Assembly (NCBI GenBank): GCA_027063225.1
Contig: JAMOSG010000008.1
Location: forward strand, 1-60,858
DNA: 60,858 bases
Direction: 5' to 3'
Source of the DNA: Helicobacteraceae bacterium
Lineage (GTDB): Bacteria > Campylobacterota > Campylobacteria > Campylobacterales > Sulfurimonadaceae
The notes below the pieces were generated by a model. The model ran no database searches. It saw only the letters and a program-made list of their open reading frames with translations, and was not told the DNA's origin. Within the stretch, counting starts at the first letter, position 1. Each line of letters starts with the position of its first letter. The position numbers were made by a program, and so were the translations under genes. Shown piece after piece: positions 30,852-46,024 of this stretch.

Positions 30852-32462
30852 TTAATATCTTAAGACAACCGCAGCACCAAGTGCTAGTTGATAGATAATT
30901 TGTGTAATATCTTTTACAACTTGTAAGTATTTTGTATCGACACGACCAAGAACTAAAATTGAATCTCCTGGTTCAATTTTATAATCCTCTTTAAAAAATG
31001 CTGTGTCATCATAAGTGTGAACTTCTCCACTTTTTTTGATAATAAGAACCTGCTCTTGATTTGCACGGAAACTATATCCACCACACGATTGAATATAATC
31101 CTCAAAAGTTAAATTTTCTACATATGTTTGTGCACTAGGAAGCATAACTTCCCCCTGAATAACAACCATATTGTTCTTTTTAGGGATGTAGATTTTATCT
31201 CCATCTTCTAAGTAGATTTGAGAGAGGTTTGTATCTTTGTTTATAATAACTTGCCCCTTTGGTTGTACCTCTCTTGCACGTTGAATAAAGTTTTGTACAA
31301 GTGCAGCTTCTTGTTTACGTATAGTTGCTTCTTCTACTGTGTAAGACCCTGCAGTAAGTGTTTTTGCTTCAAGGTCGTTTAGTTGTGCATCTAAAAGTTT
31401 TTTTTGTTCTGCTGCAATACTTTTTCTAAAAAGCTGAAAAGAGCTTGGGTCTGACATTGGTGTAAATTTTATTTTGTCAAATACCTCTTTTAAAGATGTT
31501 CCTTTTTTTACAACAAGGTTATGAATATTGGCATGTTCACCTGTGATCTCTATAGCGATATCTTTTGGGTTATGATCTGGAATAAAATTGATTGTTTCAC
31601 CACTGTGAATTTGTAAGTTCATATTGTCTTTTATAGTATAAATAGCAACACTTTGTTCATTGTCTTGGTTGTAGCTTGTTACAGTAAAATTTGTTAATGT
31701 TGGATTTGGAAGTACCGCTTTTAAAACATCTTTAAGTGCTATACTTTTCCCTTTTAGTTCAAATCTGTAGGGGCGTTTTACATCTCCTGTAATCTCTATG
31801 TAGTCTTTTACACTTTCAACTACAATTACATCTCCCATATGAAACTGAAAAAGTTTTAGTGAACCACTGAGTAAAAAGTTGTAAAGATCTGCACGATACA
31901 CCTCTTTGTTTTGACGAAGTACTTTGATGTTTCTGTAGCTTCCACTTTTGGCATTTATACCTTTTGCTTTGTCAATATACTGAATAATAGAGTCAGATGA
32001 AAGACCCTCATAAAGTCCTGGTTTATTTACCGCACCAGTTACAAAAATACTTACAGGCTGATAGGAATTTAAGTCTGCGTAAACAAAGACACTCTCTTTA
32101 AAAATATTTTTTACAGCATTTTGAATAGTTTGACTTAGTTGATTGTTTTTAATGCCAGCTACATGGATTGTTCCCACTTTTGGAACAAAGATATTTCCTT
32201 GGGAATCAACACTTATGCGAGTGTTGAACTCAAATGCACCCCATAGTTGTAGGTTTATGGTATCTCCAATACTTATGAGGTAATCTGGGTTGTATCTGTA
32301 TTGTTTATTTTGTGAAAAACTACCATTAAAAAGGTTGTATCCAAATACTTGCACACTCTCTTGTTGAGTGGGAGTATCTGTGTTTGTATCTGTTACACCT
32401 GAGAGTTCAACTCCTAAGAGTTTTAAAGTGAGTAAAAAAGAGATGAGTATATATTTTAACAT
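30852..32462 (-). CDS. kpsD: Capsule export outer-membrane protein KpsD
   Basis: A 536-residue polysaccharide export protein, last gene of the kpsT-kpsE-kpsD run. It has a signal peptide (KYILISFLLTLKLLGVELSG), the poly-export domain (YLISIGDTINLQLWGAFEF near residue 45) and several SLBB-type beta-grasp repeats (IFVTGAVNKPGLYEG, IEITGDVKRPYRFELKG, MVVIQGEVMLPSAQTYV). It has no lipobox, as expected for KpsD rather than Wza. It would form the periplasmic/outer-membrane conduit for capsule chains. Its end is 8 bases from the converging pflA. Confidence 0.9.
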   Translation of the reverse strand: MLKYILISFLLTLKLLGVELSGVTDTNTDTPTQQESVQVFGYNLFNGSFSQNKQYRYNPDYLISIGDTINLQLWGAFEFNTRISVDSQGNIFVPKVGTIHVAGIKNNQLSQTIQNAVKNIFKESVFVYADLNSYQPVSIFVTGAVNKPGLYEGLSSDSIIQYIDKAKGINAKSGSYRNIKVLRQNKEVYRADLYNFLLSGSLKLFQFHMGDVIVVESVKDYIEITGDVKRPYRFELKGKSIALKDVLKAVLPNPTLTNFTVTSYNQDNEQSVAIYTIKDNMNLQIHSGETINFIPDHNPKDIAIEITGEHANIHNLVVKKGTSLKEVFDKIKFTPMSDPSSFQLFRKSIAAEQKKLLDAQLNDLEAKTLTAGSYTVEEATIRKQEAALVQNFIQRAREVQPKGQVIINKDTNLSQIYLEDGDKIYIPKKNNMVVIQGEVMLPSAQTYVENLTFEDYIQSCGGYSFRANQEQVLIIKKSGEVHTYDDTAFFKEDYKIEPGDSILVLGRVDTKYLQVVKDITQIIYQLALGAAVVLRY

Positions 32463-32464
32463 TT

Positions 32465-33652
32465 TTATTCCTTATGATCTTTAATAATAGCAAGTAGCAT
32501 AGAAAAAATTCCATACATTAAGAGTATAACCATTGTAAGTGTTATAAAATCTTTTGGTTTGTTTGGATAAGTGTAACCATCTGGAAGGTTTGGCTGACTT
32601 ACAATACTTAATGTTTTTGCTGCTTTTATTGCATCTAGTTTTGTTGTTTCTAACTCTACTAAACTTGTTTTATAAACTTCAACAGCAAATTCAAATTGTA
32701 GTTTTAATTTTTCGTATTGAAATAAGATACTATTGAGTCTGTTTTTGTCGTTACCAGTGAGCCCTTTTTTTGCTTTTGCTAAAGATTTTTCTATCTCTTG
32801 AATCTCTGTTTTTAATTTTTTTAGTTCGTAGTTGTCTGGGTTAAGGTAAGCACTTTTTGTTTTATACTCTATGCGTTTTTGTGTTAAAGATGTTTCGAGC
32901 TCTGCAATAATAGAGATAGAAGTAGATGCTTCTGCTTTTGGGTCTAAAAGGAGGTGGTCATTTTGGTATTTTTCTAAAATAGCAGAAGCTTTTTCCATTT
33001 TTTCTTTATTTTTTTTGTGTTCAAGTTCCACAAACTTGAGTCTTTTTTGTGCTTTTTTTCTGTTAAATTCATTGAGTGCAAATTCTGCTTGAGAAATAAG
33101 ATAGTTCAATATCTCTTGCGCTTTTTTTGGATTTGTATCTAAAAAAGATATATGTAAAATAGAGGAGATCTCATCATACTCTATAAGGAGATTTTTATGG
33201 TAAAACTCTAAAATCTCTTCCATTTTTACATCTTGAGGTAATCTTTGTATAAAGTCTATTGCATCACTTTTGTAGTGTTGAATAAGGTGGAACTTTTTGT
33301 CAAGTTTTAAAAAGATATCGAGTGAATTAAGGTATTCCTCCACAACCATAGAGTCTTGGTGTTGCGAACCTGAACTAGCACCCAAAAGTGATAATCCTAA
33401 ACTACTAACAGGAGAACTTTGACTTAAGTCTCTTACCATAATAGCAGCTTTAGATTCGTAAAGTTCAGACTTTATAAACATAATATAGATAAAAGATAGA
33501 AGAAAAACTGTTAAGAAAAATGCTCTAATTTTAAATGTTTCATACTTTTTGCTTAGTTGTATGTATGTTATTTTGTCATTTTTGAGTGTTTCGTAGTTGC
33601 CTTGAGGGTTTATTTTTTTAAACCAGTATGACAGAATTGTTTTTTTTACCAT
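32465..33652 (-). CDS. kpsE: Capsule export inner-membrane adaptor KpsE
   Basis: A 395-residue member of the polysaccharide co-polymerase (PCP-3) family, anchored by a helix near residues 43-62 and another near the C-terminus. A long coiled-coil periplasmic region lies around residues 190-310 (KRLKFVELEHKKNKEKMEKA). It links the KpsMT transporter to KpsD. It ends three bases before kpsD starts, so the genes are co-transcribed. Confidence 0.88.
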   Translation of the reverse strand: MVKKTILSYWFKKINPQGNYETLKNDKITYIQLSKKYETFKIRAFFLTVFLLSFIYIMFIKSELYESKAAIMVRDLSQSSPVSSLGLSLLGASSGSQHQDSMVVEEYLNSLDIFLKLDKKFHLIQHYKSDAIDFIQRLPQDVKMEEILEFYHKNLLIEYDEISSILHISFLDTNPKKAQEILNYLISQAEFALNEFNRKKAQKRLKFVELEHKKNKEKMEKASAILEKYQNDHLLLDPKAEASTSISIIAELETSLTQKRIEYKTKSAYLNPDNYELKKLKTEIQEIEKSLAKAKKGLTGNDKNRLNSILFQYEKLKLQFEFAVEVYKTSLVELETTKLDAIKAAKTLSIVSQPNLPDGYTYPNKPKDFITLTMVILLMYGIFSMLLAIIKDHKE

Positions 33653-33662
33653 ATTGCTCTCT

Positions 33663-34331
33663 TTATTTTTGTTTGTTTATAGCATCATAAACTGCTATTG
33701 CTTCGTTAATATCTTCATAATAGGTCATATTGCCATCATTGACAACAATGCCAGAATCGCATATCTCTTTAAGGGTTGGCATAGAATGGCTTACAAGTAA
33801 AACATTGCAGTTTTCTATTTTTTTCTTTAGTGCGTTTTTTGACTTTACTTGAAAGTTTTTGTCCCCAACTGAAAGGGTTTCATCGATGATGAGATAGTCA
33901 AAATCAAAAAATAAACTTAGCCCAAAACTTAAACGTGATTTCATACCACTTGAGTAAATTTTTATAGGCATATCGAAATAATCTCCAAGCTCACTAAACT
34001 CTTTTACTGATTCTATGGCTTGTTGTATTTCATACTCACTTTTACCATAAATGCGACAAACAAATTTAACATTTTGACGCCCTGTCATAGAACCTTGAAA
34101 ACCACCTGCAAGTCCCATAGGCCAAGAGAAAGTTTTGTCTGAATGGATTGTTCCAGAGTTTGGAAAATCTATGCCACCCAACATTCGAAGTAGGGTAGAT
34201 TTACCAGCACCATTTCGCCCTAAAATACCAACATTGGTATGTGTTGGTATAATCTGGCTTACATCATTTAAGATATATTTCTTACCCCTTGATGTTTTGT
34301 AGTATTTTGTTACATTTCTAAGTTCTATCAA
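33663..34331 (-). CDS. kpsT: Capsule ABC transporter ATP-binding protein KpsT
   Basis: A 222-residue ATPase with Walker A GRNGAGKST, the signature YSSGMKSRL, Walker B YLIIDETLS and the KpsT-type SVGD motif. It powers export of lipid-linked capsule through KpsM. The start appears to be TTG at 34331 (TTG ATA GAA); no ATG lies in frame upstream. A TATAAT box on the minus strand at 34361-34366 lies directly upstream, between kpsM and kpsT. Confidence 0.93.
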   Translation of the reverse strand: MIELRNVTKYYKTSRGKKYILNDVSQIIPTHTNVGILGRNGAGKSTLLRMLGGIDFPNSGTIHSDKTFSWPMGLAGGFQGSMTGRQNVKFVCRIYGKSEYEIQQAIESVKEFSELGDYFDMPIKIYSSGMKSRLSFGLSLFFDFDYLIIDETLSVGDKNFQVKSKNALKKKIENCNVLLVSHSMPTLKEICDSGIVVNDGNMTYYEDINEAIAVYDAINKQK

Positions 34332-34360
34332 AATTTTACTCTTTTAGTACTATTTTTTTA

Positions 34361-34366
34361 ATTATA
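34361..34366 (-). promoter_or_regulatory. -10 box upstream of kpsT
   Basis: TATAAT in GGTATAATTA on the minus strand, in the 40-base kpsM-kpsT gap. Its strength suggests that kpsTED can be transcribed without kpsM. Confidence 0.45.
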
Positions 34367-34371
34367 CCATA

Positions 34372-35154
34372 CTACTTTGACGCAATAATTTTCTTTTCAG
34401 CTTTTGTGTAAAAATAAAGCCCTAAAAAAAGTGGAATAAACGTCCAGTAAAAGATGTATTCATAATCTACATAGTTTGTATGTAACTTACTAAAATAACT
34501 ACCATGAATAAGCTCCAAAAAATGTGCTAAAGGGTTGTACAAAATAATCTCTCTTAGTACAGGGGGTAAAGAATCTACCGTGTACATAATAGCAGAGACA
34601 AACATCATAGGAGTTATAATGACATCTACAATTTTTGAAAAAGTTTCATAAAAAGTACCAACCACAGCTGTAAAAAGTCCTATGGCAAACCCAAAAAGTG
34701 CTAACCAAAACACACCAAGCATAACCATGTTAAAATCTTTTATGGAAACATCTAAATCTATGTAGAGTGCAATAGCTAAAAAAACAAGTGTTGCCATAGC
34801 ACTTACTAAAATTTCTATAAGAAAACGTGTTATGATGGTGTCTATGGGTTTTACTTGTTTGTAGTTAAACAAAGCGGTGTTTGCACTAAAAGCACCCATA
34901 GATTTTTTTACTATGTTTTTCCACATAAAAAAAGCTAAAAAGCCAGTAGCTAAAAAAACAGGAAACTCAATACCAGGCATAGAATGCTCAGAGATGGCAG
35001 ACTTAAGCCCTGCAAAAATAAGCACCATAAACATGGCATCAAACAACGCCCAAAAATACCCTAAACGCTTACTTCCAAAACGGGTTTGGATTTCACGTAG
35101 AAAGAGTGCTAAAATAACGGAAGAAAATATTTGAAGTGAGTTTCTTTTTAACAT
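34372..35154 (-). CDS. kpsM: Capsule ABC transporter permease KpsM
   Basis: A 260-residue ABC-2-type permease with six predicted helices. LREIQTRFGSKRLGYFWAL near residue 20 and the late YNPLAHFLELIHGSYF are typical of capsule and O-antigen exporters. It forms the inner-membrane channel with KpsT. It is divergent from the biosynthesis gene at 35261, so export and synthesis genes share one regulatory region. Confidence 0.92.
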   Translation of the reverse strand: MLKRNSLQIFSSVILALFLREIQTRFGSKRLGYFWALFDAMFMVLIFAGLKSAISEHSMPGIEFPVFLATGFLAFFMWKNIVKKSMGAFSANTALFNYKQVKPIDTIITRFLIEILVSAMATLVFLAIALYIDLDVSIKDFNMVMLGVFWLALFGFAIGLFTAVVGTFYETFSKIVDVIITPMMFVSAIMYTVDSLPPVLREIILYNPLAHFLELIHGSYFSKLHTNYVDYEYIFYWTFIPLFLGLYFYTKAEKKIIASK

Positions 35155-35210
35155 AAGTGGTATTTTAGCATAAGTTATAGACCTTAGTTTAAATATATAT
35201 ATAAAAATGT

Positions 35211-35216
35211 TATAAT
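35211..35216 (+). promoter_or_regulatory. -10 box for the capsule biosynthesis operon
   Basis: TATAAT in TGTTATAATACT, 45 bases before the ATG at 35261, preceded by alternating AT sequence. A CTGGAG ribosome site lies before the start. Confidence 0.55.
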
Positions 35217-35260
35217 ACTTTCGTTTTTTTCACTAATCGTCAAAAACTGGAGTAAATCAT

Positions 35261-36637
35261 ATGAGAAATATTGCTGTAATTTTAGCAGGTGGGATTGGTA
35301 GTAGATTTGGTTTAGATATACCTAAACAGTTTGCTAAGTTAGCTGGAAAGTCTATTATTGAACATACTATTGAAGTGTTTCAGAAACATACTTTGATAGA
35401 TGAAGTTTGTATCGTGAGTCATGAAGATTGGATTTGGAAAATTGAAGAGATTGTAAATCAAAATAATTTTACAAAAGTAAAAAAAATCTTGTGTGGAGGA
35501 GATGAGAGAAAAGATTCATCTCTAAGTGCGATTAGTGCTTATGAACAATCTGAAGTGAATTTAATTTTTCATGATGCAGTAAGACCATTTGTAAGTGATA
35601 AAATCATAGACAGTTGTATAGAGAGTCTTAAACACTACAACGCTATAGATGTTGCAATACCTGCTGTAGATACTATAGTTGAGGTTGAAAACAAAATTAT
35701 AAAAAATATTCCAAAACGTGCAGATATGATGCAAGGTCAGACACCTCAATGTTTTAAACTATCTACTATTAAGCAAGCATATGAGATCGCTCAAAAAGAC
35801 ACAAACTTTAAACCTACAGATGATTGTGGTGTTGTAAAGAAGTATTTGCCTCAAGAGGATATACATATTGTCAATGGTAGTATTGATAATATAAAAATTA
35901 CACATGCACAAGATATTTTTATGGCAGACAAACTATTTCAACTTAAAAGAACTTCTTTAGATACGAGATATAGTAAAGAGTATTACGATAAAGAACTTTA
36001 TAAAAAAGTGCTAGTTGTTTTTGGTGGTTCTTATGGTATTGGAAAAGATATAGGTGCAATAGCAAAAGAGCATGGAGCACATGTATATCTCTTTGGTCGA
36101 AGTACTACAAATACAGATATTACAGCTATTTCAGATGTAAAAAGAGAACTTGAATATGTGTATAAAAAAGAGGGAAGAATTGATTTTGTTGTAAATACAG
36201 CATCTATTTTAGTTAAAGAACCTTTGGCACATACTTCTTATGAGGATATACTAGATATTATAAATATCAATTATTTAGGTGCAGTTAATGTTGCAAAGGA
36301 GTCCATTGTTTATTTGGAAGAAAGTTCTGGACATCTTTTAAATTTTACATCGAGTTCATATACAAGAGGAAGAGCAAATTACTCGCTATATAGCTCAACT
36401 AAAGCGGCTATGGTTAATTTAACACAAGCTTTAGGAGAGGAGTTGATCCATAAAAAAATTAGAGTAAATTGTATAAATCCTGAAAGAACTTTAACTCCAA
36501 TGAGAGTGAGTAATTTTGGTAAAGAGGACCCAAAAACTTTACTCTCTTCAAAAGAGGTTGCATATGGTTCTATAAACACGCTTTTGAGTAATTTAACAGG
36601 GCAGGTTGTAGATATTAAGCTAAATAAGGTTAAATAA
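35261..36637 (+). CDS. Bifunctional CDP-ribitol synthase-type fusion (cytidylyltransferase + SDR)
   Basis: 458 residues with two enzymes in one chain. Residues 1-230 are an IspD/TarI-type cytidylyltransferase (LAGGIGSRFGLDIPKQF at 8-24, HDAVRPF near 105, TDDCGVV near 187). Residues about 245-458 are a short-chain reductase (FGGSYGIGKDIG, NTAS, then the Ser-Tyr-Lys set SSSYTR...YSLYSSTKAA). This is the architecture of Haemophilus influenzae Acs1/Bcs1, which makes CDP-ribitol from ribulose 5-phosphate for ribitol-phosphate capsules. An IspD role in isoprenoid synthesis is less likely given the SDR fusion and capsule context. Substrate specificity is inferred. Confidence 0.85.
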   Translation: MRNIAVILAGGIGSRFGLDIPKQFAKLAGKSIIEHTIEVFQKHTLIDEVCIVSHEDWIWKIEEIVNQNNFTKVKKILCGGDERKDSSLSAISAYEQSEVNLIFHDAVRPFVSDKIIDSCIESLKHYNAIDVAIPAVDTIVEVENKIIKNIPKRADMMQGQTPQCFKLSTIKQAYEIAQKDTNFKPTDDCGVVKKYLPQEDIHIVNGSIDNIKITHAQDIFMADKLFQLKRTSLDTRYSKEYYDKELYKKVLVVFGGSYGIGKDIGAIAKEHGAHVYLFGRSTTNTDITAISDVKRELEYVYKKEGRIDFVVNTASILVKEPLAHTSYEDILDIININYLGAVNVAKESIVYLEESSGHLLNFTSSSYTRGRANYSLYSSTKAAMVNLTQALGEELIHKKIRVNCINPERTLTPMRVSNFGKEDPKTLLSSKEVAYGSINTLLSNLTGQVVDIKLNKVK

Positions 36638-36638
36638 A

Positions 36639-37841
36639 GTGAGTAAATGGACAAAATTTAAAAATAAGCCAGTACTTTTTTTTAAAGATATGGTTTTGAA
36701 TGCAGTTGCAAAACCAAAACCAAAACCAAAAACAAAACCAAAGAATATAGCATCTTTTAACTATAATATGTTTTATCCTTATACTCATCTACTTCATACT
36801 GGTGAAAATGTAACTGGTTTAAGTCATTTGGATTTATGGATTTCTTATTTCAAAGAGGCAGATGTGGAGTTTGTTATTTTAGTAAGAAATTTTGAACTTT
36901 TTGAATTGCTAAAAGAAAAATACCCATATATAACAGTTTTGTTTGCAAAAGGTAAAAAAGAGGTAGAGACTTATTTTAAACAACTTTCTCACTTAAAAGC
37001 TTGCTTTTATCCATCGAATACGGGAAATAACTTACATTTACTTCATCATAACCATATAAAACATATTTTTATAGGCCATGGAGATAGTGATAAAACAGCA
37101 AGCGCTCATAAGTATTTTCGTGTTTATGATGAGAACTGGGTAGCAGGAGAGGCCCATATAGATAGATTTTATAATGCTGGTTTTGATTTTTCAGGTTTAA
37201 AAAACATTAAGGTTGGGAGACCAAGTTTAAAAGAGATTTTACAAATTTCAGAGGTTGATTGGAGAGAAAGATTTGATGGTAAATTGAATTTACTTTATCT
37301 TTCAACTTGGGAAGGTGTTTATGAAGAACAAAACTACACATCTGTTTCAATAATTAATACAGCTTTTGATAGTATATATAAGTATTTTGATGAAATTAAT
37401 ATAAAATTACATCCTTGGGTAGGAAGAAGAGAAGAAAATTTACTACGAATTTCAAAAATTTTAGAAACGAATTTGCAAGAAAAAGAAGTTGCATACAAGA
37501 TAGCAGAGAAGCATATAAATGTTGATTTTTTAATAAAAAAAGCAAATATTTTTATATGTGATATATCAGCGGTGATTACTGATTCTTTAGCTGCTAATGC
37601 TCCAATCTTTGTTTATATCCCAAAAGGTAAAGATATAAAATTATCTAAAAGTAAAATGGGTTATGAAGATTACACATATGTTTTTTCAAATATAGAAGAA
37701 TTAGTTGAAAAGATGGAAGATGTTTTAAATGGAAATGATTATCTAAAAGAAAAAAGAGAAGAAGCAATGGAATATATTTTAGGTAGAGATGAAACATTAA
37801 ATGATGAGTTTATCTCTCAACTTCAAAAACTTCAGGGATAG
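36639..37841 (+). CDS. CDP-glycerol/ribitol phosphotransferase-like (TagF family), copy 1
   Basis: 400 residues from a GTG one base after the previous stop. An N-terminal Lys-Pro-rich stretch (KPKPKPKTKPK, residues 25-35) is coded by CAAAAC-type repeats. The catalytic-type motifs of the CDP-alcohol phosphotransferase family are present: IFIGHGDSDKTASAHKYF near residue 145, LYLSTWEG near 223 and INIKLHPW near 253. It is predicted to transfer alditol phosphate from the CDP donor to a growing capsule chain on the cytoplasmic face. The acceptor is unknown. Base composition here is poorer in G+C than in the nuo region. Confidence 0.8.
   Translation: MSKWTKFKNKPVLFFKDMVLNAVAKPKPKPKTKPKNIASFNYNMFYPYTHLLHTGENVTGLSHLDLWISYFKEADVEFVILVRNFELFELLKEKYPYITVLFAKGKKEVETYFKQLSHLKACFYPSNTGNNLHLLHHNHIKHIFIGHGDSDKTASAHKYFRVYDENWVAGEAHIDRFYNAGFDFSGLKNIKVGRPSLKEILQISEVDWRERFDGKLNLLYLSTWEGVYEEQNYTSVSIINTAFDSIYKYFDEINIKLHPWVGRREENLLRISKILETNLQEKEVAYKIAEKHINVDFLIKKANIFICDISAVITDSLAANAPIFVYIPKGKDIKLSKSKMGYEDYTYVFSNIEELVEKMEDVLNGNDYLKEKREEAMEYILGRDETLNDEFISQLQKLQG
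36709..36742 (+). repeat. Imperfect CAAAAC hexamer repeat
   Basis: About five imperfect copies of a six-base unit (CAAAAC and variants) coding Lys-Pro pairs in the preceding transferase. Because the unit is a multiple of three, length change would alter the linker, not the frame. Confidence 0.6.
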
Positions 37842-37847
37842 AAAGAA

Positions 37848-38870
37848 ATGGCTTATAATCTTGAAAAGTTAAATAAACATGTTAAAAATATATATATGAT
37901 TCATTTGGTAGATAGTAAATTAAATAAGAATCATCTCTCTTATTGGATAGAAGTATTTGAAAAAAGTGAACAAAATTTTAGTTTTTTAGTTAGAGATGAA
38001 AAAAGTTTTGGAGAATTGATACAGCTTTATCCTCAACATCAAATTTTATATGCTTCAACACCTGTTGATGTTGAGACTATTGTAAATGCTCAGCCATCTT
38101 TAAAAGTAGTTTTTTTCCCTTTAAATGCAGCAAAAAACATTCACTTACTTAGATTTAACCATCTTAAACATATTTTTATAGGAACTAAACATTCAGATCA
38201 ACTTTCTGTGATCAATAAATCTTATAAAGCTTATGATGAGATATGGGTTTCAAGCCAATCGATGGTAGATAAATATAATGAAAATTTTGAAAATTTGGGA
38301 CACTTACAATTAAAAATTGTAGGAAAACCGCAATTAAAAAATGTATTTTTAGAGTCTGAGAAGATGGTACAAAAAGATACTATTATCTTAAATATTGCTA
38401 ACTCAAACTCTTTATTTGTAAATCAACTTAGTGTATTACTTTTAACATTAAAATCACACCATTTTTCTATCTTTATAAACGATAATACTATTTTTAGAAG
38501 ATTAAAGGAATTTTTACAAGGTTATTTGTTAAATAGTAATTTATACTTAAACAACTCAATGTTTGATTTATTGATTGCTCAATCAAAATATATTATCACT
38601 GATGTAGATAATATTTCTATATTTTATTTAGCCTATAATCAACCACTGATTGTTTATGTTCCTGAGGATATAGAAAAAGATACTCTTAGATTAGATATAC
38701 CTCATGATGCTTTGTATCTATTTTCAAATAAAGATGAATTTTTAGATATTATTGAAAATATAGATAAAGATATTTTAAAATCAAAAAGAGAATATTATGC
38801 AGAGTATTTTCTTGGAAAACAAGCAACATTAGATGATGAAATATATAAAAAATTAAAATTGTTGAACTAA
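37848..38870 (+). CDS. TagF-family-like paralogue lacking catalytic motifs, copy 2
   Basis: 340 residues, clearly related to its two neighbours by blocks such as LLRFNHLKHIFIG, KAYDEIWVSSQ and the C-terminal YFLGKQATLDDE. The conserved GHGxSDK reads GTKHSDQ, and no KLHP or QPHP motif is present where the second catalytic His is expected (IFINDNT instead). It may be a non-catalytic partner of the flanking transferases or a diverged enzyme. The frame is intact and coding, not obviously decayed. Confidence 0.75.
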   Translation: MAYNLEKLNKHVKNIYMIHLVDSKLNKNHLSYWIEVFEKSEQNFSFLVRDEKSFGELIQLYPQHQILYASTPVDVETIVNAQPSLKVVFFPLNAAKNIHLLRFNHLKHIFIGTKHSDQLSVINKSYKAYDEIWVSSQSMVDKYNENFENLGHLQLKIVGKPQLKNVFLESEKMVQKDTIILNIANSNSLFVNQLSVLLLTLKSHHFSIFINDNTIFRRLKEFLQGYLLNSNLYLNNSMFDLLIAQSKYIITDVDNISIFYLAYNQPLIVYVPEDIEKDTLRLDIPHDALYLFSNKDEFLDIIENIDKDILKSKREYYAEYFLGKQATLDDEIYKKLKLLN

Positions 38871-38873
38871 AAG

Positions 38874-39923
38874 ATGTATTATATTTATTTGGACTCAAAA
38901 ATAAAAGGTACTTACGATATAGTGCTTTCTTATTTTAAAAATTCTGTTTTTGATAAGGAACAAGTTACAATTCTTCATAGAGTTTACAAAGTAAATACAA
39001 AATGGACAAATATTTTTTATAAAGAAAGGATAAAAGTTTTAAATATAAAAAGATGGAAAGATTTGCCCTCTTTAGCAAATACAACTATTTTTTATATGTT
39101 TAATGCTCAATCAAACTGTAGAATGGTTTCTTACAGGGAAGCTACACATATCTTTATAGGGCATGGAGAGAGTAACAAACTTGCTTCTGCAAAACCTATT
39201 TTTCGCATTTATGACTATATTGCTGTGGCAGGTTCTGCTAGTATCGATAGATTTCTTTTTCAAAAGATTTTTACTCAATGTGATGTTGAAAATGAGAAGT
39301 TTTTAAAAGTTGGAAACAAATTTATTGGAGAAGCTCCTTATCGTTATGTTTTAAATGAAAAAACATTACTATATGCTCCAACATGGGAGGGTGGAATAGA
39401 GGAAGAAAACTACTCTAGTTTAACTTCATCTTTAGAAAGTTTTTATTTGATTATAAAATATATGAAAAAGTATGAATATAAAAAGATTATTATCCAACCA
39501 CACCCAAATACAGGTCATAGAGATAAAAAATATATTCAGTATCTATTAGCAGGTATTGAACTTTTAAAAAATGTTGGATTTGAAGTTTATCTAAGACCTA
39601 TAAAGTTACCATGGATAAGTAAAATGAGATTCAAGGGTAGTTTTTTAGACAGTTCATACCAAGAGAATGTTTCTGTTGCATTTTGCGATGTATCTGCCAT
39701 GGAGATACAGCTTTTAGATAAAGAGATACCAACTTTTGTATTTTTTACCAACACAACCAATTTGGTTCCAGATAATATGCTTACAAAAGAGTATTATGCT
39801 ATTGTTGGTATTAAGAACTATAGTTCTAAATTAGAGGTAGTTAAGAAAGAGTTTTTATTGAAAATGAAAAATTATTATATTGAACAAAATAAAGGGCAAT
39901 CTATATTAGATATGTTAAGGTAG
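38874..39923 (+). CDS. CDP-glycerol/ribitol phosphotransferase-like (TagF family), copy 3
   Basis: 349 residues, starting 4 bases after the previous gene. It keeps the family motifs: IFIGHGESNKLASAKPIF near residue 95, LLYAPTWEGGIEEENYS near 163 and IIQPHPNTGHRD near 204. It is predicted to be an alditol-phosphate transferase working with copy 1, for example as primer and polymerase; which does which cannot be told from sequence. Confidence 0.8.
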   Translation: MYYIYLDSKIKGTYDIVLSYFKNSVFDKEQVTILHRVYKVNTKWTNIFYKERIKVLNIKRWKDLPSLANTTIFYMFNAQSNCRMVSYREATHIFIGHGESNKLASAKPIFRIYDYIAVAGSASIDRFLFQKIFTQCDVENEKFLKVGNKFIGEAPYRYVLNEKTLLYAPTWEGGIEEENYSSLTSSLESFYLIIKYMKKYEYKKIIIQPHPNTGHRDKKYIQYLLAGIELLKNVGFEVYLRPIKLPWISKMRFKGSFLDSSYQENVSVAFCDVSAMEIQLLDKEIPTFVFFTNTTNLVPDNMLTKEYYAIVGIKNYSSKLEVVKKEFLLKMKNYYIEQNKGQSILDMLR

Positions 39924-39929
39924 TAGATT

Positions 39930-40781
39930 ATGAAGATTATTTTTATATTTTTGCTTGTTACTTCTTTGTTTGGTAGTGACTTTGTTCATAAAGAGAAGTT
40001 TATATATCATTTAAAAAACATACATAAAACAAAAAAGAAAAATTATGCAAAAAATGTTATTCAGGGAATTAGTTTTATAAATAAAGATAAATTTATAACA
40101 ACACAGACAATAGCACGTAATCATTCCTTGCTTATAAATATTTTTTCTTTTAAAAACAATAAACCTAGAGTTGAATTTACACAAGAGATAGCTTATGATT
40201 CTCATGCACAAGATTTAAGTTTTTATATGTTAGATGAAAAATTACACTTAATTACTACAGGAAAAAAATGGCAAGGTGTTGTAGATTTAGTATGGGTAAA
40301 AAATAAATTTCATCTTTATAAAGAGCATAAATTAGAAATAGGAAAAAATACACCATCTCTTTGTGAAAATAAATTTTATCTTATAACTAAAGCAAATAAC
40401 TCCATATATATTTATCGTTTTGAAGATATAAAAAATCAAAAAAAAGTATCACCAAGAGCTTTGTTTTCATTTGTGTTAGCTAAAAAGCAGCGAGAAAAAT
40501 CTCAATGGCTACAAGGCTTAGCTATGAAAGATAATTATATTTACGCTCTTTCAGGAGACAATACATTAAAGGGGAAAAAGTATTTATATATTTATGATTC
40601 TTTTGGTAAAGTAGAGGCTCATTTTGAACTGTTTGCAGGAAAATCAAGAGCAGAAAAAGATGGCAAAAAGTGGGAAATGGAAGGTTTAACTTTTTTAAAT
40701 AACAAACTTTATACTACTGTTATGACTGGCTTTAATGGTAAAAATAAAAAATATTTGTATCAAATTTTATATATCAAATAG
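39930..40781 (+). CDS. Exported protein, possible beta-propeller of the teichoic-acid C/helveticin type
   Basis: 283 residues with a signal peptide (KIIFIFLLVTSLFGS) and then beta-strand-rich sequence. The motifs SQWLQGLAMKDNYIYALSG near residue 190 and KKWEMEGLTFLNNKLY near 250 resemble the repeated blade signatures of proteins annotated as teichoic acid biosynthesis protein C or helveticin J-like, in which QG(F/L)...YVY and EPEGL recur. This is a pattern match only. It would act outside the cytoplasm, and its place inside the capsule gene run suggests a role in handling or trimming the polymer. Confidence 0.6.
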   Translation: MKIIFIFLLVTSLFGSDFVHKEKFIYHLKNIHKTKKKNYAKNVIQGISFINKDKFITTQTIARNHSLLINIFSFKNNKPRVEFTQEIAYDSHAQDLSFYMLDEKLHLITTGKKWQGVVDLVWVKNKFHLYKEHKLEIGKNTPSLCENKFYLITKANNSIYIYRFEDIKNQKKVSPRALFSFVLAKKQREKSQWLQGLAMKDNYIYALSGDNTLKGKKYLYIYDSFGKVEAHFELFAGKSRAEKDGKKWEMEGLTFLNNKLYTTVMTGFNGKNKKYLYQILYIK

Positions 40782-40787
40782 GCATTT

Positions 40788-41759
40788 ATGAACTACTCCA
40801 CATCCCAACAACTTATAAAAAATACAAAAATTTTTTTATCTTTAAAACTGTATACTTTTTTTGATAGGCTACTTGAGAAAAAAGGCACATTCTACGGCTG
40901 GGGAAGAAAAAAGTCAGGTCTTAAAGCTGTTGCTTTAGCAAAAAAGTTTGGTACATCTTTTGTATTGCTTGAAGATGGCTTTATCCGCTCCATTGGTCTT
41001 GGAGTAGATGGTTCACCTTCTTTTTCTTTAGTAGAAGATAATGTTGGCATATACTACGATGCTACAACACCTTCAAAACTTGAAAATATTTTAAATACTT
41101 ACGATTTTTCTTGTGATACAAAGCTTATGCAACAAGCAAACAAGGCTATAGAGCTTATTTTGCAACATAACATCTCTAAGTATAACAATGCTTTAAATTT
41201 ACCAAAAAATCTTTTTCCCAAAGAAGAAAAAAGGGTGCTTGTAGTAGCACAAACAGCAGGAGATGCTTCACTAAAGTATGGTATGCTTAAAAACTTTACA
41301 ACCGATGAAATGATACAAACTGCCATAGAGCAAAACCCAGATGCAACAGTGTATTTAAAGATTCATCCCGATGTTCTTAGTGGAAAAAAAGATTCTGATA
41401 TTACTTTAGAAAATTTAAACAAAGAAGTGGTTGTTATTGAAAAAAACTACAATCCCATTGCATTGTTAAAACATTTCGACAAAGTCTATACAAAAACTTC
41501 CGGTATGGGGTTTGAAGCACTTTTAGTTGGGTGTGAAGTTGTTTGTTTTGGAATGCCATTTTATGCAGGGTGGGGCATAACAACAGATAAAGTAGAGTGT
41601 AAACGCAGAAAAAAACAAAGAACCATTCAAGAGGTATTTGCTGCAGCATATATCCTCTACACTCGCTACTATAACCCTTACAAAAATAGAGCATGCGATA
41701 TTTTTGAAACTATAGAAGAGATTTTACACCAAAAAACTTTACAATTTCACAAAGCGTAA
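40788..41759 (+). CDS. kpsC: KpsC N-terminal-half protein (Kdo transferase, GT99-like)
   Basis: 323 residues, about half of normal KpsC. It carries one copy of the KpsC domain: FYGWGRKKSG near residue 25, LLEDGFIRSIGLG near 60, VGIYYDATTPSKLE near 85, KIHPDVLSGKK near 190 and ALLVGCEVVCFGMPFYAGWG near 245. The GWGRK-to-PSFSLVED pattern fits the N-terminal (beta-2,4-Kdo) half of two-domain KpsC, which helps build the poly-Kdo linker between capsule and lipid. The other half lies convergently at 41739-42824, with the gene ends overlapping by 21 bases. The rest of the precursor supply (kpsF, kpsU) is not in the window. Confidence 0.8.
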   Translation: MNYSTSQQLIKNTKIFLSLKLYTFFDRLLEKKGTFYGWGRKKSGLKAVALAKKFGTSFVLLEDGFIRSIGLGVDGSPSFSLVEDNVGIYYDATTPSKLENILNTYDFSCDTKLMQQANKAIELILQHNISKYNNALNLPKNLFPKEEKRVLVVAQTAGDASLKYGMLKNFTTDEMIQTAIEQNPDATVYLKIHPDVLSGKKDSDITLENLNKEVVVIEKNYNPIALLKHFDKVYTKTSGMGFEALLVGCEVVCFGMPFYAGWGITTDKVECKRRKKQRTIQEVFAAAYILYTRYYNPYKNRACDIFETIEEILHQKTLQFHKA

Positions 41760-42824
41760 AACCATTTGAATTTTACGTGAAAAAAAGTTTTGAAGTTTTT
41801 GTTTTAAACGGTAAGAAAAAGAGGAATTGTAGCGTTGTTTCTCTTGTTCTATACCATCTAAAAGTACCTCTATTTCACATAGCTGAAGTGTTAAAGGGTC
41901 TATATATTTAGGGTAAAGTACTAAAGTTCCTGCAACTAGCTCCTCTAAAGAGAGTTTTTTGACTCTTCTTGAAATTGTTTTTGCATCATTTGTAAGTCCC
42001 CATCCAGCATAAAAAGGAAGACCATAAGTAAAAACTTTTTTTCCACGTAAAAGTGCTTCAAACCCAACCAAAGAGGTCATAGTATGCACTTCATCACAAA
42101 TTGCTAGGACACTATCTAGTCCCACTTCTGTGACTATCTCATTGGCATATTTTAGTGCATCTTTTTCATCTACATTTCCAACTCTATTGCCTACTAAAAC
42201 ATCAGGGTGTGGTTTATACACAATGTAAGAGTTGGGGGAGTTTTTTCTTGCTTGTTTTAAAAGCTCTAAATTGGTCATACCATTTGCACCATATTGTATA
42301 GAGGCATCATCTTCAACTTGTCCTGGAACAAGTGCTATTGGTTTGTTTGTATCTATTGTAAGTTTTTTATTTTCATATAGATTATATTTAGAGAGTTGTT
42401 TCTCAAGCAGATAGTTTTTTACTTTTGTTGCTCTTTGTAAAAGAGTTTCACTAAATATTGTTGTGTTTAAAATATGTTCTAAATCACTCTCTGTGGTTGG
42501 GTCAAAGTAAATGCCCCTAGAGTCAATAACTAAAGAGTAAGGTTGTGTTAAGTCAGAACCAAGTCCAACAGAGCGAACAAAGCCATCTTCTACCCTGTAA
42601 AGTGGTATGTTATGCTGTTTTGCAAACTCTTCTACTTTTGGAAAAGATTTTCTCCCCCAAATATAGATAGAAGATTTTTCATTAAGCCCTTTTTTTAATG
42701 CAAGGTTAAAATAGTCCTGAAAAAAAAGTGGATTAACAAATACTATTTTTTTGGAATCAAGATGTGGGAAAAAAGGTTTTATAAAGTTGTGTTTCCATAA
42801 AGAAAAACCAAAAAAATAATGCAT
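41739..42824 (-). CDS. kpsC: KpsC C-terminal-half protein (Kdo transferase, GT107-like)
   Basis: 361 residues from the ATG at 42824, which has an AAGGGATC ribosome-site-like stretch. The frame is open back to 43058, but that would overlap kpsS and gives a non-homologous hydrophobic leader. Motifs IYIWGRKSFP, YRVEDGFVRSVGLGSDL, RGIYFDPTTESDLEHIL, KPHPDVLVGNR and GFEALLRGKKVF match the C-terminal (beta-2,7-Kdo) half of KpsC. It is coded on the strand opposite the N-terminal half, so this strain makes KpsC as two proteins. Confidence 0.8.
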   Translation of the reverse strand: MHYFFGFSLWKHNFIKPFFPHLDSKKIVFVNPLFFQDYFNLALKKGLNEKSSIYIWGRKSFPKVEEFAKQHNIPLYRVEDGFVRSVGLGSDLTQPYSLVIDSRGIYFDPTTESDLEHILNTTIFSETLLQRATKVKNYLLEKQLSKYNLYENKKLTIDTNKPIALVPGQVEDDASIQYGANGMTNLELLKQARKNSPNSYIVYKPHPDVLVGNRVGNVDEKDALKYANEIVTEVGLDSVLAICDEVHTMTSLVGFEALLRGKKVFTYGLPFYAGWGLTNDAKTISRRVKKLSLEELVAGTLVLYPKYIDPLTLQLCEIEVLLDGIEQEKQRYNSSFSYRLKQKLQNFFSRKIQMVLRFVKL

Positions 42825-42939
42825 AAAGAACGATCCCTTAGAGTAAAAATATTGTAGATGTATTATATCATAAGAGTAAAATAAAAAGTTAAGTACAAAA
42901 AAGGTAAAATAAAGTGAATTTTTTATAAAGGTTTGTTTG

Positions 42940-44121
42940 GTGAATAGTGTAGGTACTCTTTTGAATAAAAATGTATTGCTGCTCCAAGGTCCAATGGGGG
43001 ATTTTTTTAAAAGGCTTGAGCAATATTTACAAACAAAAGGGGCTAAAACTTTTCGCATAGGGTTTAATGGAGGAGATTGGCTTTTTTCTTACAAAAATAA
43101 CTACACACCCTACACAGATACCACACAAAACTGGCCTGAATTTGTAAAAAAATTTTTACAACAACACAAAATAGAGAAAGTCTTTTTATTTGGTGATTGT
43201 AGATTTTACCAAAGCATCACTATTCAAGAAGCTCAAAAACTTGGAATTGAGGTGTTTGTTTTTGAAGAGGGGTATGTAAGACCCGACTTTGTTACCCTTG
43301 AGAAGTGGGGAGTAAATAATTTTTCCCTTATTCCAAGAGAAGCAAATTTTTATAAAAACTTAGATTTTGCCTCCCTTAAACTTAAAGAAACAAAACCAAC
43401 AAATCCATCCTTTTTTAAAATGGGATGGAGTGCTACATGGTATTATATTTTTTTATATATTGGACAATTTTATTATCCTCACTATCAGCATCATCGAGAA
43501 GCAAACCCTTGGATTGAAGCGTTTTATGGGTTAAGAAACTTATATAGAAAATATAAATACAAAATTATTGAAAAAAATAAACTTCAAGAGATTCTTCAGA
43601 GTTCTTATTTTTTTGTTCCTTTGCAAACCTATAACGACTTTCAATTAAGAGTTCACTCTAACTTTGAAACTATTGAGGAGTTTATAGAAACTATTATAGC
43701 CTCTTTTGCAAAAAATGTCCCTCAAGATAAATATTTGGTTTTTAAACACCATCCAATGGATAGAGGAAGAAAAGATTATAAATCTTTTATTGAAAATGTA
43801 GCACAAAAGTACAATGTAAAAAACAAAATGGTGGTGGTTTATGACTTACATCTACCAACATTGTTAGATAACACTTTAGCAACAATCACAATCAACTCTA
43901 CAGTTGGTTTACAGGCGTTGTACCATAATTCACCTGTTAAAGTTTTAGGAACTGCTATTTACGACATAAAAGAGCTAACAGATCAAAAAAGCTTAGATGA
44001 TTTTTGGAATAATCCAAAAAAACCAAATCAAACACTTTTTAAAAAGTTTAGACTCTATCTCATACAAAAAACACAAATCAATGGTAGTTTTTATGGCTAT
44101 TTTGATTTTGAAAGTATTTAA
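42940..44121 (+). CDS. kpsS: Capsule polysaccharide protein KpsS
   Basis: About 393 residues. The start is GTG at 42940, eight bases after AAGG; a TTG one codon earlier is possible. KpsS adds the first Kdo to phosphatidylglycerol when building the capsule lipid anchor. Family blocks seen: LLLQGPMGDFFKRLEQYL, LFGDCRFYQ near residue 85, FVFEEGYVRPDFVTLEKWG near 105 and KHHPMDRGRKDY near 270. It is divergent from the KpsC C-terminal half and ends in a bidirectional terminator. Confidence 0.9.
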   Translation: MNSVGTLLNKNVLLLQGPMGDFFKRLEQYLQTKGAKTFRIGFNGGDWLFSYKNNYTPYTDTTQNWPEFVKKFLQQHKIEKVFLFGDCRFYQSITIQEAQKLGIEVFVFEEGYVRPDFVTLEKWGVNNFSLIPREANFYKNLDFASLKLKETKPTNPSFFKMGWSATWYYIFLYIGQFYYPHYQHHREANPWIEAFYGLRNLYRKYKYKIIEKNKLQEILQSSYFFVPLQTYNDFQLRVHSNFETIEEFIETIIASFAKNVPQDKYLVFKHHPMDRGRKDYKSFIENVAQKYNVKNKMVVVYDLHLPTLLDNTLATITINSTVGLQALYHNSPVKVLGTAIYDIKELTDQKSLDDFWNNPKKPNQTLFKKFRLYLIQKTQINGSFYGYFDFESI

Positions 44122-44146
44122 AAGTTACACTATTTGTGTAACTTTT
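44120..44146. terminator. Bidirectional terminator after kpsS
   Basis: Perfect 11-base arms AAAAGTTACAC and GTGTAACTTTT around a 5-base loop, with a T-run on both strands. It overlaps the kpsS stop codon and serves the converging gene at 44151. Confidence 0.8.
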
Positions 44147-44150
44147 TGGT

Positions 44151-44540
44151 TTATTTTATAAGCTCTTTAGTCCAATTTTCCATAGTATCGTGAAACTTTT
44201 CATTTGGAGCTTCTAAAAAGCTTATAACGAAGCTATCTTCCATCTCAACAACACCAATAGAGCGTGGACGAACAGCAAGCATTTGTGGGTTTGGTAGTTT
44301 TGGTCCAAAACAAAAGATTACATTTTGAGCATCTTTAATATTTTGAGCAACTTCTCCATTTTCTAAACTTGTTGTATGTTCATAATGGTCAAATGTAGCA
44401 ATAAATTTAGCAACAGGATGAGTGTTTATCTTCTCTTCTAAATTGGAGATAATCTCATTAAGAGTTGCAAATTTAGACTCCTCTTTTTTAATCTCTAAAG
44501 AGTAGATAGGGTAGCGTTCTAAAAAGATAGATTTTTGCAT
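44151..44540 (-). CDS. Conserved hypothetical protein
   Basis: 129 residues, soluble and acidic, without signal peptide or membrane segment. VIFCFGPKLPNPQMLAVRPR near residue 75 is the most distinctive stretch. An AAAAAAGGAT site precedes its ATG. I recognise no function; it may be a small family restricted to Campylobacterota. It stands alone between two convergent or divergent neighbours. Confidence 0.75.
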   Translation of the reverse strand: MQKSIFLERYPIYSLEIKKEESKFATLNEIISNLEEKINTHPVAKFIATFDHYEHTTSLENGEVAQNIKDAQNVIFCFGPKLPNPQMLAVRPRSIGVVEMEDSFVISFLEAPNEKFHDTMENWTKELIK

Positions 44541-44682
44541 TTTTAATCCTTTTTTAGTGAAATAATAGCTTATAATTATTATAGTTTATTGAAATATTAA
44601 AACTATAAAGGATAGATTATCTTTTGTTTAATTTATAGTTGTAGTATTTTAACAAATAACTTAAAAAAGGTTTTCTTATATT

Positions 44683-45384
44683 ATGAAAAAAATACTTTTA
44701 TCTGTTTTGACACTTTTTTTTGTTGGATGTAATAGTTCCTCAACACAACAACATACAAATTTAGATGGCAAAAAACTTCTTGAACAAAAATGTAGTAAAT
44801 GTCACAATTTAGACTTACCTCCAAAAACATCAGAGGATGAGGTAGCTCCACCTATGATGGCTGTCGCATTTCACGTGAAAGATTTTATGCAGGTTTCAAA
44901 TGAGAGTGAGAGGCTGCCAAAAGCAAAAGAGTTTGTAAAAGATTATGTCTTTAATCCATCCGCTTCTAAATCTTTATGCGATAAAAAAAGCTTGCAACGT
45001 TATGGTGTTATGCCTTCACAAAAAGGGAATCTAACACAAGAGGAGTTAGCTGCAATTGCAGAGTATATTTTTGAGCACTTTAATGTAAAAAATCTTAATG
45101 AAGCTCAAGCAATTCAAAATAGACTAAAAAAAATGGCACCAGGGAAACGTTTAGCTATAAAATATGGATGCCTCTCATGCCATAAAGGGAAAAAAGATTT
45201 AGTTGGACCAGCATTTGTAAAAATCTCTCAAAAATATTCCCTAGAAGATATTCAAAAAAGTATTACAAATGGTTCATCTGCTAAATGGGGAACGAAGGCT
45301 ATTATGCCACCATTTAAAACACGCATACCGCAACAAGATATTGCAACATTAGCAAAATGGATAAAAGATGCAAATAGTTTTTAA
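44683..45384 (+). CDS. Diheme cytochrome c lipoprotein
   Basis: 233 residues with a lipoprotein signal (LFFVGC, modified Cys16), so it should be membrane-anchored in the periplasm. It has two haem sites, CSKCH at 37-41 and CLSCH at 163-167, each followed by a class-I cytochrome c domain with late Met candidates (GVMPSQ, AIMPPF). It probably shuttles electrons in respiration. It overlaps the next gene by 17 bases. The 140-base upstream spacer contains repeated ATAGTTTATT-like elements (44581-44640). Confidence 0.88.
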   Translation: MKKILLSVLTLFFVGCNSSSTQQHTNLDGKKLLEQKCSKCHNLDLPPKTSEDEVAPPMMAVAFHVKDFMQVSNESERLPKAKEFVKDYVFNPSASKSLCDKKSLQRYGVMPSQKGNLTQEELAAIAEYIFEHFNVKNLNEAQAIQNRLKKMAPGKRLAIKYGCLSCHKGKKDLVGPAFVKISQKYSLEDIQKSITNGSSAKWGTKAIMPPFKTRIPQQDIATLAKWIKDANSF

Positions 45385-46024
45385 TAACGAACCTTTAGAA
45401 AATAGTGCCCAATCTCTTTGGGGGTTTAGTGGTTATTTAAAAGAGTATAAACTCCTTTTTGATACAGGAAGCAATGGGCGTATTCTTTTAAAAAATATGC
45501 AAAAACTAGGTGTTGATGTTTTAGAGATAGAGTATATTTTTATCTCCCATTCCCATTGGGATCATATTGGTGGAATTGACTCTATTATTGAGTTAAATCC
45601 AAATGTGACACTATTTGTGCCATCATCTCTTTCAAAACATCTTATAAAAGATTTAAAAACACTTGTAAAAGAGGTAGTTGTTGTAGGTAAAAAACCACAA
45701 CACCTTTTTGATAGTTTATACTCAACTGGTATTTTAGGTACAGATATGCCTGAGCAATCTTTAATAGTTGATGGTGAAAAACCTTTCATTATAAGTGGTT
45801 GTGGTCATTTTGGTGTAAAGAATATTGTAGAGGTTGCTCAAGAGATTATAAAAAAACAGATTTATAAAGTGGAGGGTGGTTTTCATCTGTTGTATAGTGA
45901 TGAAGCAAAAATCAAACAAACAAAAGAAAAACTACTAGAGTTTGGAGTAAAAGAGTTTGCTCCTACCCACTGTAGTGGGCAAAAAGCAATAGAGATATTT
46001 AAAGCTCTAAACAATCAGCAATAG
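45368..46024 (+). CDS. MBL-fold metallo-hydrolase
   Basis: 218 residues of metallo-beta-lactamase fold. The zinc motif HSHWDH lies near residue 59, with later ligands GCGHFGV near 140 and PTHCSG near 200. [20 protein letters not shown] resembles the subfamily annotated as dihydropterin-ribofuranosylaminobenzene phosphate synthase-like. The true substrate is unknown. It starts inside the cytochrome gene and its 3' end overlaps dapB (convergent) by 26 bases. Confidence 0.85.

Follow-up and report, generated by a model that had tools for sequence, protein, structure and literature searches.

A chromosomal island predicted to encode a ribitol-phosphate capsule on a Kps/Kdo system in a member of the Sulfurimonadaceae

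The window analysed here is a stretch of 60,858 nucleotides from a Helicobacteraceae bacterium (assembly GCA_027063225.1, contig JAMOSG010000008.1, positions 1 to 60,858; GTDB family Sulfurimonadaceae). It carries a capsule-type gene cluster in which a fusion of an IspD-type domain with a short-chain dehydrogenase/reductase (SDR) domain, three TagF-like proteins and an exported beta-propeller are associated with a Kps export system and with transferases for 3-deoxy-D-manno-oct-2-ulosonic acid (Kdo). The features of the locus are as follows:

30852..32462, minus strand: KpsD-type outer-membrane polysaccharide export protein (NCBIfam polysaccharide-export models, below cut-off; identity to KpsE-adjacent proteins of relatives)
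32465..33652, minus strand: KpsE (BexC/CtrB/KpsE) inner-membrane export protein (TIGR01010)
33663..34331, minus strand: KpsT, ATPase of an ATP-binding cassette (ABC) transporter (PF00005; Sulfurovum homolog)
34372..35154, minus strand: KpsM, ABC transporter permease (PF01061)
35188..35216, plus strand: possible promoter upstream of the operon, on weak evidence (TTTAAA-17-TATAAT with TG, in the divergent gap between kpsM and the IspD-SDR gene)
35261..36637, plus strand: IspD-SDR fusion, predicted bifunctional CDP-ribitol synthase of Bcs1/Acs1 architecture (PF01128 and PF00106; NF001183)
36639..37841, plus strand: TagF1, HGDSDK-type alditol-phosphate transferase, proposed priming (transition) transferase (PF04464 at E=9e-4; H147 and H258)
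37848..38870, plus strand: TagF2, putative conserved TagF pseudoenzyme, sister clade of TagF1 (motif loss, tree, structural model and Foldseek)
38874..39923, plus strand: TagF3, HGESNK-type alditol-phosphate transferase, proposed polymerase (32% identity to TagF1; both catalytic histidines)
39930..40781, plus strand: exported five-bladed beta-propeller, relative of teichoic-acid-binding phage receptor-binding proteins (PF21311; profile and structure matches)
40788..41759, plus strand: KpsC N-terminal-type module (beta-Kdo transferase) as a gene of its own (PF05159; QTAGD)
41739..42824, minus strand: KpsC C-terminal-type module (beta-Kdo transferase) as a gene of its own, inverted in place (PF05159; QVEDD)
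42940..44121, plus strand: KpsS, first beta-Kdo transferase (PF05159, E=3.5e-83; NF050054)
44120..44146, plus strand: possible intrinsic terminator 3′ of kpsS (11-pair stem, T-rich tail)

All reading frames of the cassette are intact open reading frames (ORFs) in the window, and the gene list of an earlier note, made from the sequence alone, proved correct, each named gene being an intact ORF in its place that is matched by a profile or by synteny. That note had joined KpsMTED to the span 35261-44121; these genes are present, but they lie outside that span at 30852-35154 on the minus strand and are divergent from it. KpsC is likewise present, but it is split into two half-size proteins at 40788-41759 (+) and 41739-42824 (-). 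Promoter-type matches in the region are not above chance in number, and intrinsic-terminator-type sites are not clearly so.

The fusion places an N-terminal IspD-type domain before a C-terminal SDR domain, which is the order found in Bcs1 and Acs1. It passes the NCBIfam model for ribitol-5-phosphate cytidylyltransferase (180.3 against a cut-off of 166), falls below the cut-offs of the IspD models of the methylerythritol phosphate (MEP) pathway, one of them narrowly (178.9 vs 181.3), and has the TarI-type proteins 4jis and 3f1c as its closest solved structures; its SDR domain yielded generic matches only. A homolog from Psittacicella (Pasteurellales; locus L053) is 50% identical. Because a separate IspD-containing protein of 375 amino acids, a length that fits IspDF, is encoded elsewhere in the genome, a role of the fusion as the sole MEP-pathway IspD was ruled out. 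The best-supported reading is that the fusion would make CDP-ribitol from ribulose-5-phosphate. No TagD was found in the genome, which is 77% complete, because the lengths of its only CTP_transf_like genes fit CoaD, NadD and an HldE-type protein. Of the 397 sampled Campylobacterota genomes, 16 have a strong match to the fusion, in most cases within other glycan loci, and in two of the 16 the match covers the IspD part in one frame only.

The TagF trio is paralogous, TagF2 and TagF3 being 36% and 32% identical to TagF1 over the aligned parts. TagF1 scores 18.7 bits with PF04464 against a gathering cut-off of 22.1, TagF2 and TagF3 do not match this family, and 7 of 17 TagF1/TagF3 homologs match it at E<=1e-3 (best 4.5e-9). 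Judged by these scores, TagF1 is best described as TagF-like and not as a formal member of PF04464; TagF2 and TagF3 would be TagF-like by paralogy and TagF2 by its predicted fold as well. Neither the TagF1 sequence nor a TagF1/TagF3 profile gave a meaningful match among solved structures. H147 and H258 of TagF1 are invariant across all aligned homologs and both catalytic histidines of TagF3 are kept in 11/11 homologs, whereas the HG and HP motifs that hold them are gone in 8/8 homologs of TagF2. The TagF2 homologs form one clade (support 99) that is the sister of TagF1 (support for TagF1 plus TagF2, 100). The AlphaFold2 (AF2) model of TagF2 (pLDDT 87.6) retrieved TagF structures in the first Foldseek rows (3l7j, 3l7l and 3l7i, E 5e-9 to 2e-8, TM about 0.5), with other proteins of the glycosyltransferase B (GT-B) fold nearly equal, and the VIA-align list contained generic GT-B proteins (Z 16-17) and did not single out TagF. 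We read TagF2 as a probable conserved pseudoenzyme; the earlier count of three TagF-like proteins stands with the amendment that one of them lacks the catalytic histidines.

The residue three positions after the catalytic histidine (His+3) is glycine in CroT of Haemophilus influenzae type b (Hib) and proline in glycerol-phosphate transferases (PMC10299916). In TagF1 and TagF3 it is serine throughout, within the motif HG[DE]S[DNE]K, so that neither carries the Hib-type glycine. This serine appears to speak against glycerol, yet it differs from the published ribitol signature. By motif, TagF1 and TagF3 fall into an HG[DE]S-type TagF group that spans Campylobacterota, Pseudomonadota and Actinomycetota and that we present as new. 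An enzyme that acts on a constant Kdo acceptor would be expected to be well conserved and always present; TagF1 is the most conserved TagF, and no relative locus is without it. We therefore propose TagF1 as a putative primer and TagF3 as the corresponding polymerase, although TagF1 was itself the query that retrieved the loci, so that of the two points only conservation is free of bias.

Retrieval by TagF1 similarity, in which the fusion played no part in the query, yielded 38 loci. The IspD-SDR fusion is present in 36 of them, the two exceptions being short contigs, and TagD was detected in none of the 38. In the genome scan with TagF1, Sulfurovum, Nautiliaceae, Campylobacter, Chromobacterium, Psittacicella, Alkanindiges and Microbulbifer yielded close relatives, and actinomycetes yielded remote ones. 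In a Sulfurovum metagenome-assembled genome (MAG; locus L048) the order is kpsMTE, fusion, TagF1, TagF2, propeller, TagF3, two KpsC modules and KpsS, and the cassette order is conserved between the window and Sulfurovum. The retention of this order, together with the recurrent pairing of TagF1 and fusion in the independently retrieved loci, confirmed that the cassette is not a chance grouping. In a variant cassette that has no kpsMTED nearby (L028:3294-10795), the fusion shares its strand with TagF1 and TagF2, and the opposite strand carries TagF3, TagD and an HGVP-type TagF. Two further loci (L050 and L055) have a glycosyltransferase-like gene after the TagF genes.

The Kdo anchor and export genes are those of an ABC-transporter-dependent (group 2) system. 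PF05159 occurs in three ORFs, both KpsC modules and KpsS, each with the QXXXD motif (QTAGD, QVEDD and, in KpsS, QTYND) that contains the catalytic Asp of beta-Kdo transferases (PMC10148158); the anchor enzymes are hence all present, with the two KpsC modules as separate genes. The 40788 gene best matches the N-half of full-length KpsC, and the 41739 gene best matches the C-half and is 57% identical to a co-directional gene of L048. As listed, the ORF of the C-module (439 amino acids, to 43058) is over-long, since the homolog aligns from about the MHYFFG methionine, and this start is preceded by a Shine-Dalgarno-like AAGGGAT. KpsS matches NF050054 at E=4e-127 with 424.8 bits, below the 600-bit cut-off, and its start was set by the homolog (VNSIG). 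All four export genes, KpsM, KpsT, KpsE and KpsD, are found, and KpsD and KpsE are syntenic with relatives. KpsE matches TIGR01010 at E=2e-69 (234 bits, below the 437-bit cut-off), KpsD is below the NCBIfam polysaccharide-export cut-offs and shares 38-47% identity with KpsE-adjacent proteins in relative loci, and KpsT is 67% identical to its Sulfurovum homolog.

KpsC is often split in the family, and in the sampled members with both parts on one contig the parts are co-directional. Unlike in L048 and these sampled split-kpsC relatives, the C-module gene of the window runs in reverse, exactly between the N-module gene and kpsS, and a 115-bp divergent gap separates it from kpsS. An invertible phase-variation switch was rejected, as the two junctions carry no inverted repeats. 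The inversion remains either a real rearrangement of this lineage or an assembly error.

The genes lie in an insertion of 15.1 kb (30852-45998) that separates genes adjacent in congeners: in 14 of 25 sampled congeners the match to 28484-30844 directly precedes, at a distance of no more than about 30 bases, the match to the dapB-type gene at 45999-46766. GC content is 26-28% over the TagF genes and about 34% in the surroundings. No TagF1 homolog was found among 150 other sampled members of the window's family; TagF1-type matches occur in 6 of the 397 sampled Campylobacterota genomes, the window's genome included, and the TagF trio in three. We take the cassette to be a chromosomal island that is rare and was acquired by horizontal transfer. 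On the IspD-SDR tree the six TagF1-linked Campylobacterota fusions group in a single clade (support 99), separate from the fusions of other Campylobacterota, one of which comes from the window's own genus, and this grouping fits a cassette that may move as a unit within Campylobacterota. A plasmid search with TagF1 returned one remote actinomycete record only. The earlier note had called such chemistry surprising in this ecological setting. That claim is weakened because cassettes of this kind recur in Sulfurovum, Nautiliaceae and Campylobacter MAGs and because a capsule of glycerol phosphate is already known from Campylobacter jejuni HS:1 (PMC11924219); within the phylum the island is still rare.

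The exported protein, which the earlier note had left unnamed, has a signal-peptide-like start and is now identified as a five-bladed propeller of PF21311 (29.0 against a gathering score of 23.7). This family is matched by all four homologs (window, L048, L053 and L054; E down to 8.8e-17) and, among 14 control genomes, by Bacillus subtilis only. It presumably also covers B. subtilis TagC, the search itself showing just that B. subtilis has the family; a literature search on TagC and the propeller returned nothing relevant. The propeller sequence alone gave nothing meaningful against solved structures, but the profile of its four homologs retrieved phage receptor-binding proteins (RBPs; 9m7x, 6v8i, 5efv and 6iac, E 1e-7 to 6e-5), which include those of phi11, 80alpha and P68 of Staphylococcus aureus. 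The AF2 model (pLDDT 82.4, pTM 0.84) matched phage RBPs with Z 21.5-25.0 over 256-265 residues at a root-mean-square deviation of 4.2-5.1, with glutaminyl cyclases behind (Z 18-20). For the phi11 RBP a GlcNAc pocket of Met164, Gln165, Thr211, Met329 and Gln330 has been proposed (PMC4901313). Gln165 and Gln330 align to Q45 and Q195 of the propeller, which are invariant in the four homologs; the Gln165-Q45 match comes from a weak alignment of the Alkanindiges homolog with the 80alpha protein (E 0.0095). The propeller had no match in the 297 other Campylobacterota genomes sampled, and several TagF1 loci are without it, while it recurs in three other such loci. From this homology and the gene context we infer that the propeller would bind the ribitol-phosphate polymer. 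That it instead acts on the polymer as a hydrolase, cleaving or trimming it, which would be compatible with a ribitol-phosphate capsule and concerns this one part only, seems doubtful to us: the fold also resembles glutaminyl cyclases and GH43 enzymes and has invariant His, Glu and Trp, but the closest relatives in both sequence and fold are adhesin domains, and the pocket glutamines are kept.

A tblastn search of phages with the window's propeller gave no match; the Alkanindiges homolog matches tail proteins of Bacillus and Escherichia coli phages, among them the tail spike of Escherichia phage Pollock (L097:2001-2642; 25.6%, E 4e-9), which may recognise a teichoic-acid-like E. coli capsule.

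Taken together, we consider it probable that this island of about 15 kb encodes a group 2 capsule of ribitol phosphate on a Kps/Kdo system, and we are less confident of a pure ribitol-phosphate homopolymer and of each accessory role. In the proposed pathway, the fusion would reduce ribulose-5-phosphate and activate the product with CTP to give CDP-ribitol, while KpsS and the two KpsC modules would build the lipid-linked oligo-beta-Kdo anchor. TagF1 would place the first ribitol-phosphate unit or units on the Kdo linker, TagF3 would extend them to poly(ribitol phosphate), and TagF2, a catalytically dead relative of TagF1, might serve as a structural or regulatory partner. The chain would be exported by KpsMTED, and the secreted propeller could bind it in the periplasm or at the surface and act in retention, length control or turnover.

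The Hib system resembles this arrangement in its Bcs1 CDP-ribitol synthase, its TagF-like ribitol-phosphate transferase domain and its Kps-type export on a Kdo anchor (Bcs1-Bcs3, group 2 export; PMC10299916). It differs in a multidomain polymerase with ribosyltransferase and phosphatase, whereas the window's TagF proteins are short single-domain paralogs, and in the His+3 glycine in place of HG[DE]S; the window further has the pseudoenzyme and the propeller. CpsA, CpsC and CpsD of Actinobacillus pleuropneumoniae likewise represent several alditol-phosphate transferases that work one after another on a Kdo glycolipid, the primer before the polymerase (PMC11666461), but with glycerol phosphate, a LicD-family CpsC and a CpsD bearing tetratricopeptide repeats; LicD (PF04991) was absent from the ten cassette proteins scanned, and neither these repeats nor TagD were found in the cassette. 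The C. jejuni HS:1 capsule, from the same phylum, is teichoic-acid-like and built on alditol phosphate, but it contains glycerol phosphate and depends on HS1.11, which is homologous to TagD, and on the multidomain polymerase HS1.09 (PMC11924219). The poly(ribitol phosphate) wall teichoic acid of Gram-positive bacteria (TarI/TarJ, TarL) shares the predicted donor and polymer type, and remote TagF relatives lie beside IspD-SDR in actinomycetes, but that polymer is attached through an undecaprenyl-linked disaccharide to peptidoglycan rather than to a Kdo lipid. Nuclear magnetic resonance showed wall teichoic acid of the ribitol-phosphate type in Streptomyces griseus and S. antibioticus (PMC13274773), and in other Streptomyces genomes remote relatives of the HG[DE]S group adjoin the fusion. 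Finally, the propeller shares its five-bladed fold and the two aligned glutamines with the Staphylococcus phage RBPs, but it is a stand-alone protein with a signal-peptide-like start, has neither stem nor tower, and is encoded by the cell itself within its capsule locus.

Several points weigh against a ribitol-phosphate capsule as we propose it. TagF1 lies under the PF04464 gathering threshold, we know of no characterised precedent for serine at His+3, and conservation is the one line of evidence behind the primer and polymerase assignments. TagD or further glycosyltransferases may be missing from the incomplete genome, the L028 variant carries TagD near the same TagF trio, sugars or substituents from genes elsewhere may be on the capsule, and the inversion of the C-module, if it is not an assembly error, could impair the system. 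The earlier note had left open a poly(ribitol phosphate) or a mixed capsule on a Kdo linker; ribitol phosphate is best supported, and the mixed glycerol/ribitol form is less likely because no TagD was found. A mixed alditol-phosphate or glycosyl-ribitol-phosphate capsule, with a glycerol-phosphate linker made by TagF1 or others, or with alternating sugars, from enzymes encoded elsewhere, would find support in the TagD and HGVP-type TagF of L028, in the glycosyltransferase-like genes of L050 and L055, and in A. pleuropneumoniae, where a glycerol-phosphate linker precedes the main polymer (PMC11666461). We nevertheless regard it as unlikely, given the lack of detected TagD in the available genome and in all TagF1 loci and of any other glycosyltransferase family match in the window's cassette.

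It is highly improbable that the SDR domain reduces a different ketose phosphate and that the fusion makes another CDP-alditol (xylulose-5-phosphate to CDP-arabinitol or fructose-6-phosphate to CDP-hexitol). C. jejuni HS:5 does make CDP-glucitol with an IspD-family cytidylyltransferase and an SDR-fold reductase (PMC10918830), and the SDR matches of the window are generic, but the HS:5 route uses two separate proteins, a PF01370 reductase and cytidylyl transfer as the first step, whereas the fusion has a classical SDR (PF00106) in Bcs1-like order and passes the ribitol-5-phosphate model. We give equally little credence to a capsule that is switched off or a locus in decay, to which the inverted C-module and the lost TagF2 active site might point. 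The orientation does depart from L048 and from the co-directional split kpsC genes of the family, but no ORF is broken, QXXXD, the AAGGGAT and the divergent gap of the inverted gene are all retained, and no inverted repeats lie at its junctions; because the motif loss of TagF2 is common to all eight homologs, it does not indicate decay in this genome.

What is new here is the HG[DE]S TagF group, the TagF2 pseudoenzyme, the homology between propeller and adhesin, and the split KpsC with a C-module inverted only in the window. We advance tentatively, with doubt slightly outweighing confidence, the wider proposal that Gram-negative ribitol-phosphate loci encode a secreted polymer binder homologous to a Staphylococcus phage adhesin, along with ribitol-specific, uncharacterised HG[DE]S TagF proteins and a dead paralog partner. 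If this is true, origin and ligand would be common to a protein of a cellular capsule locus and the receptor-binding domain of a phage. A ribitol-phosphate capsule encoded by the island would extend teichoic-acid-type capsules to environmental Campylobacterota and define a ribitol-linked TagF group common to Gram-negative capsules and actinomycete walls. With the propeller there is now a concrete candidate for a protein dedicated to capsule binding, one that ties phage adhesins for wall teichoic acid to cellular glycopolymer genes. Through the pseudoenzyme and the His+3 residue, priming, the length of the polymer and the choice of donor become open to direct tests.

A literature search on Sulfurovum and teichoic acid returned nothing relevant. 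Another Campylobacterota locus (L033:6264-10867) combines a TagD-like gene and an IspD-SDR fusion with one HGIP and one HGVG TagF-like protein, which is consistent with the published His+3 rule, and its polymer is possibly mixed glycerol/ribitol. Between kpsS and dapB, the same insertion holds three genes (44151, 44683 and 45368; span 44151-46024) whose products are a small protein, a c-type cytochrome that carries two haem motifs, and a protein resembling the metallo-beta-lactamase (MBL) fold.

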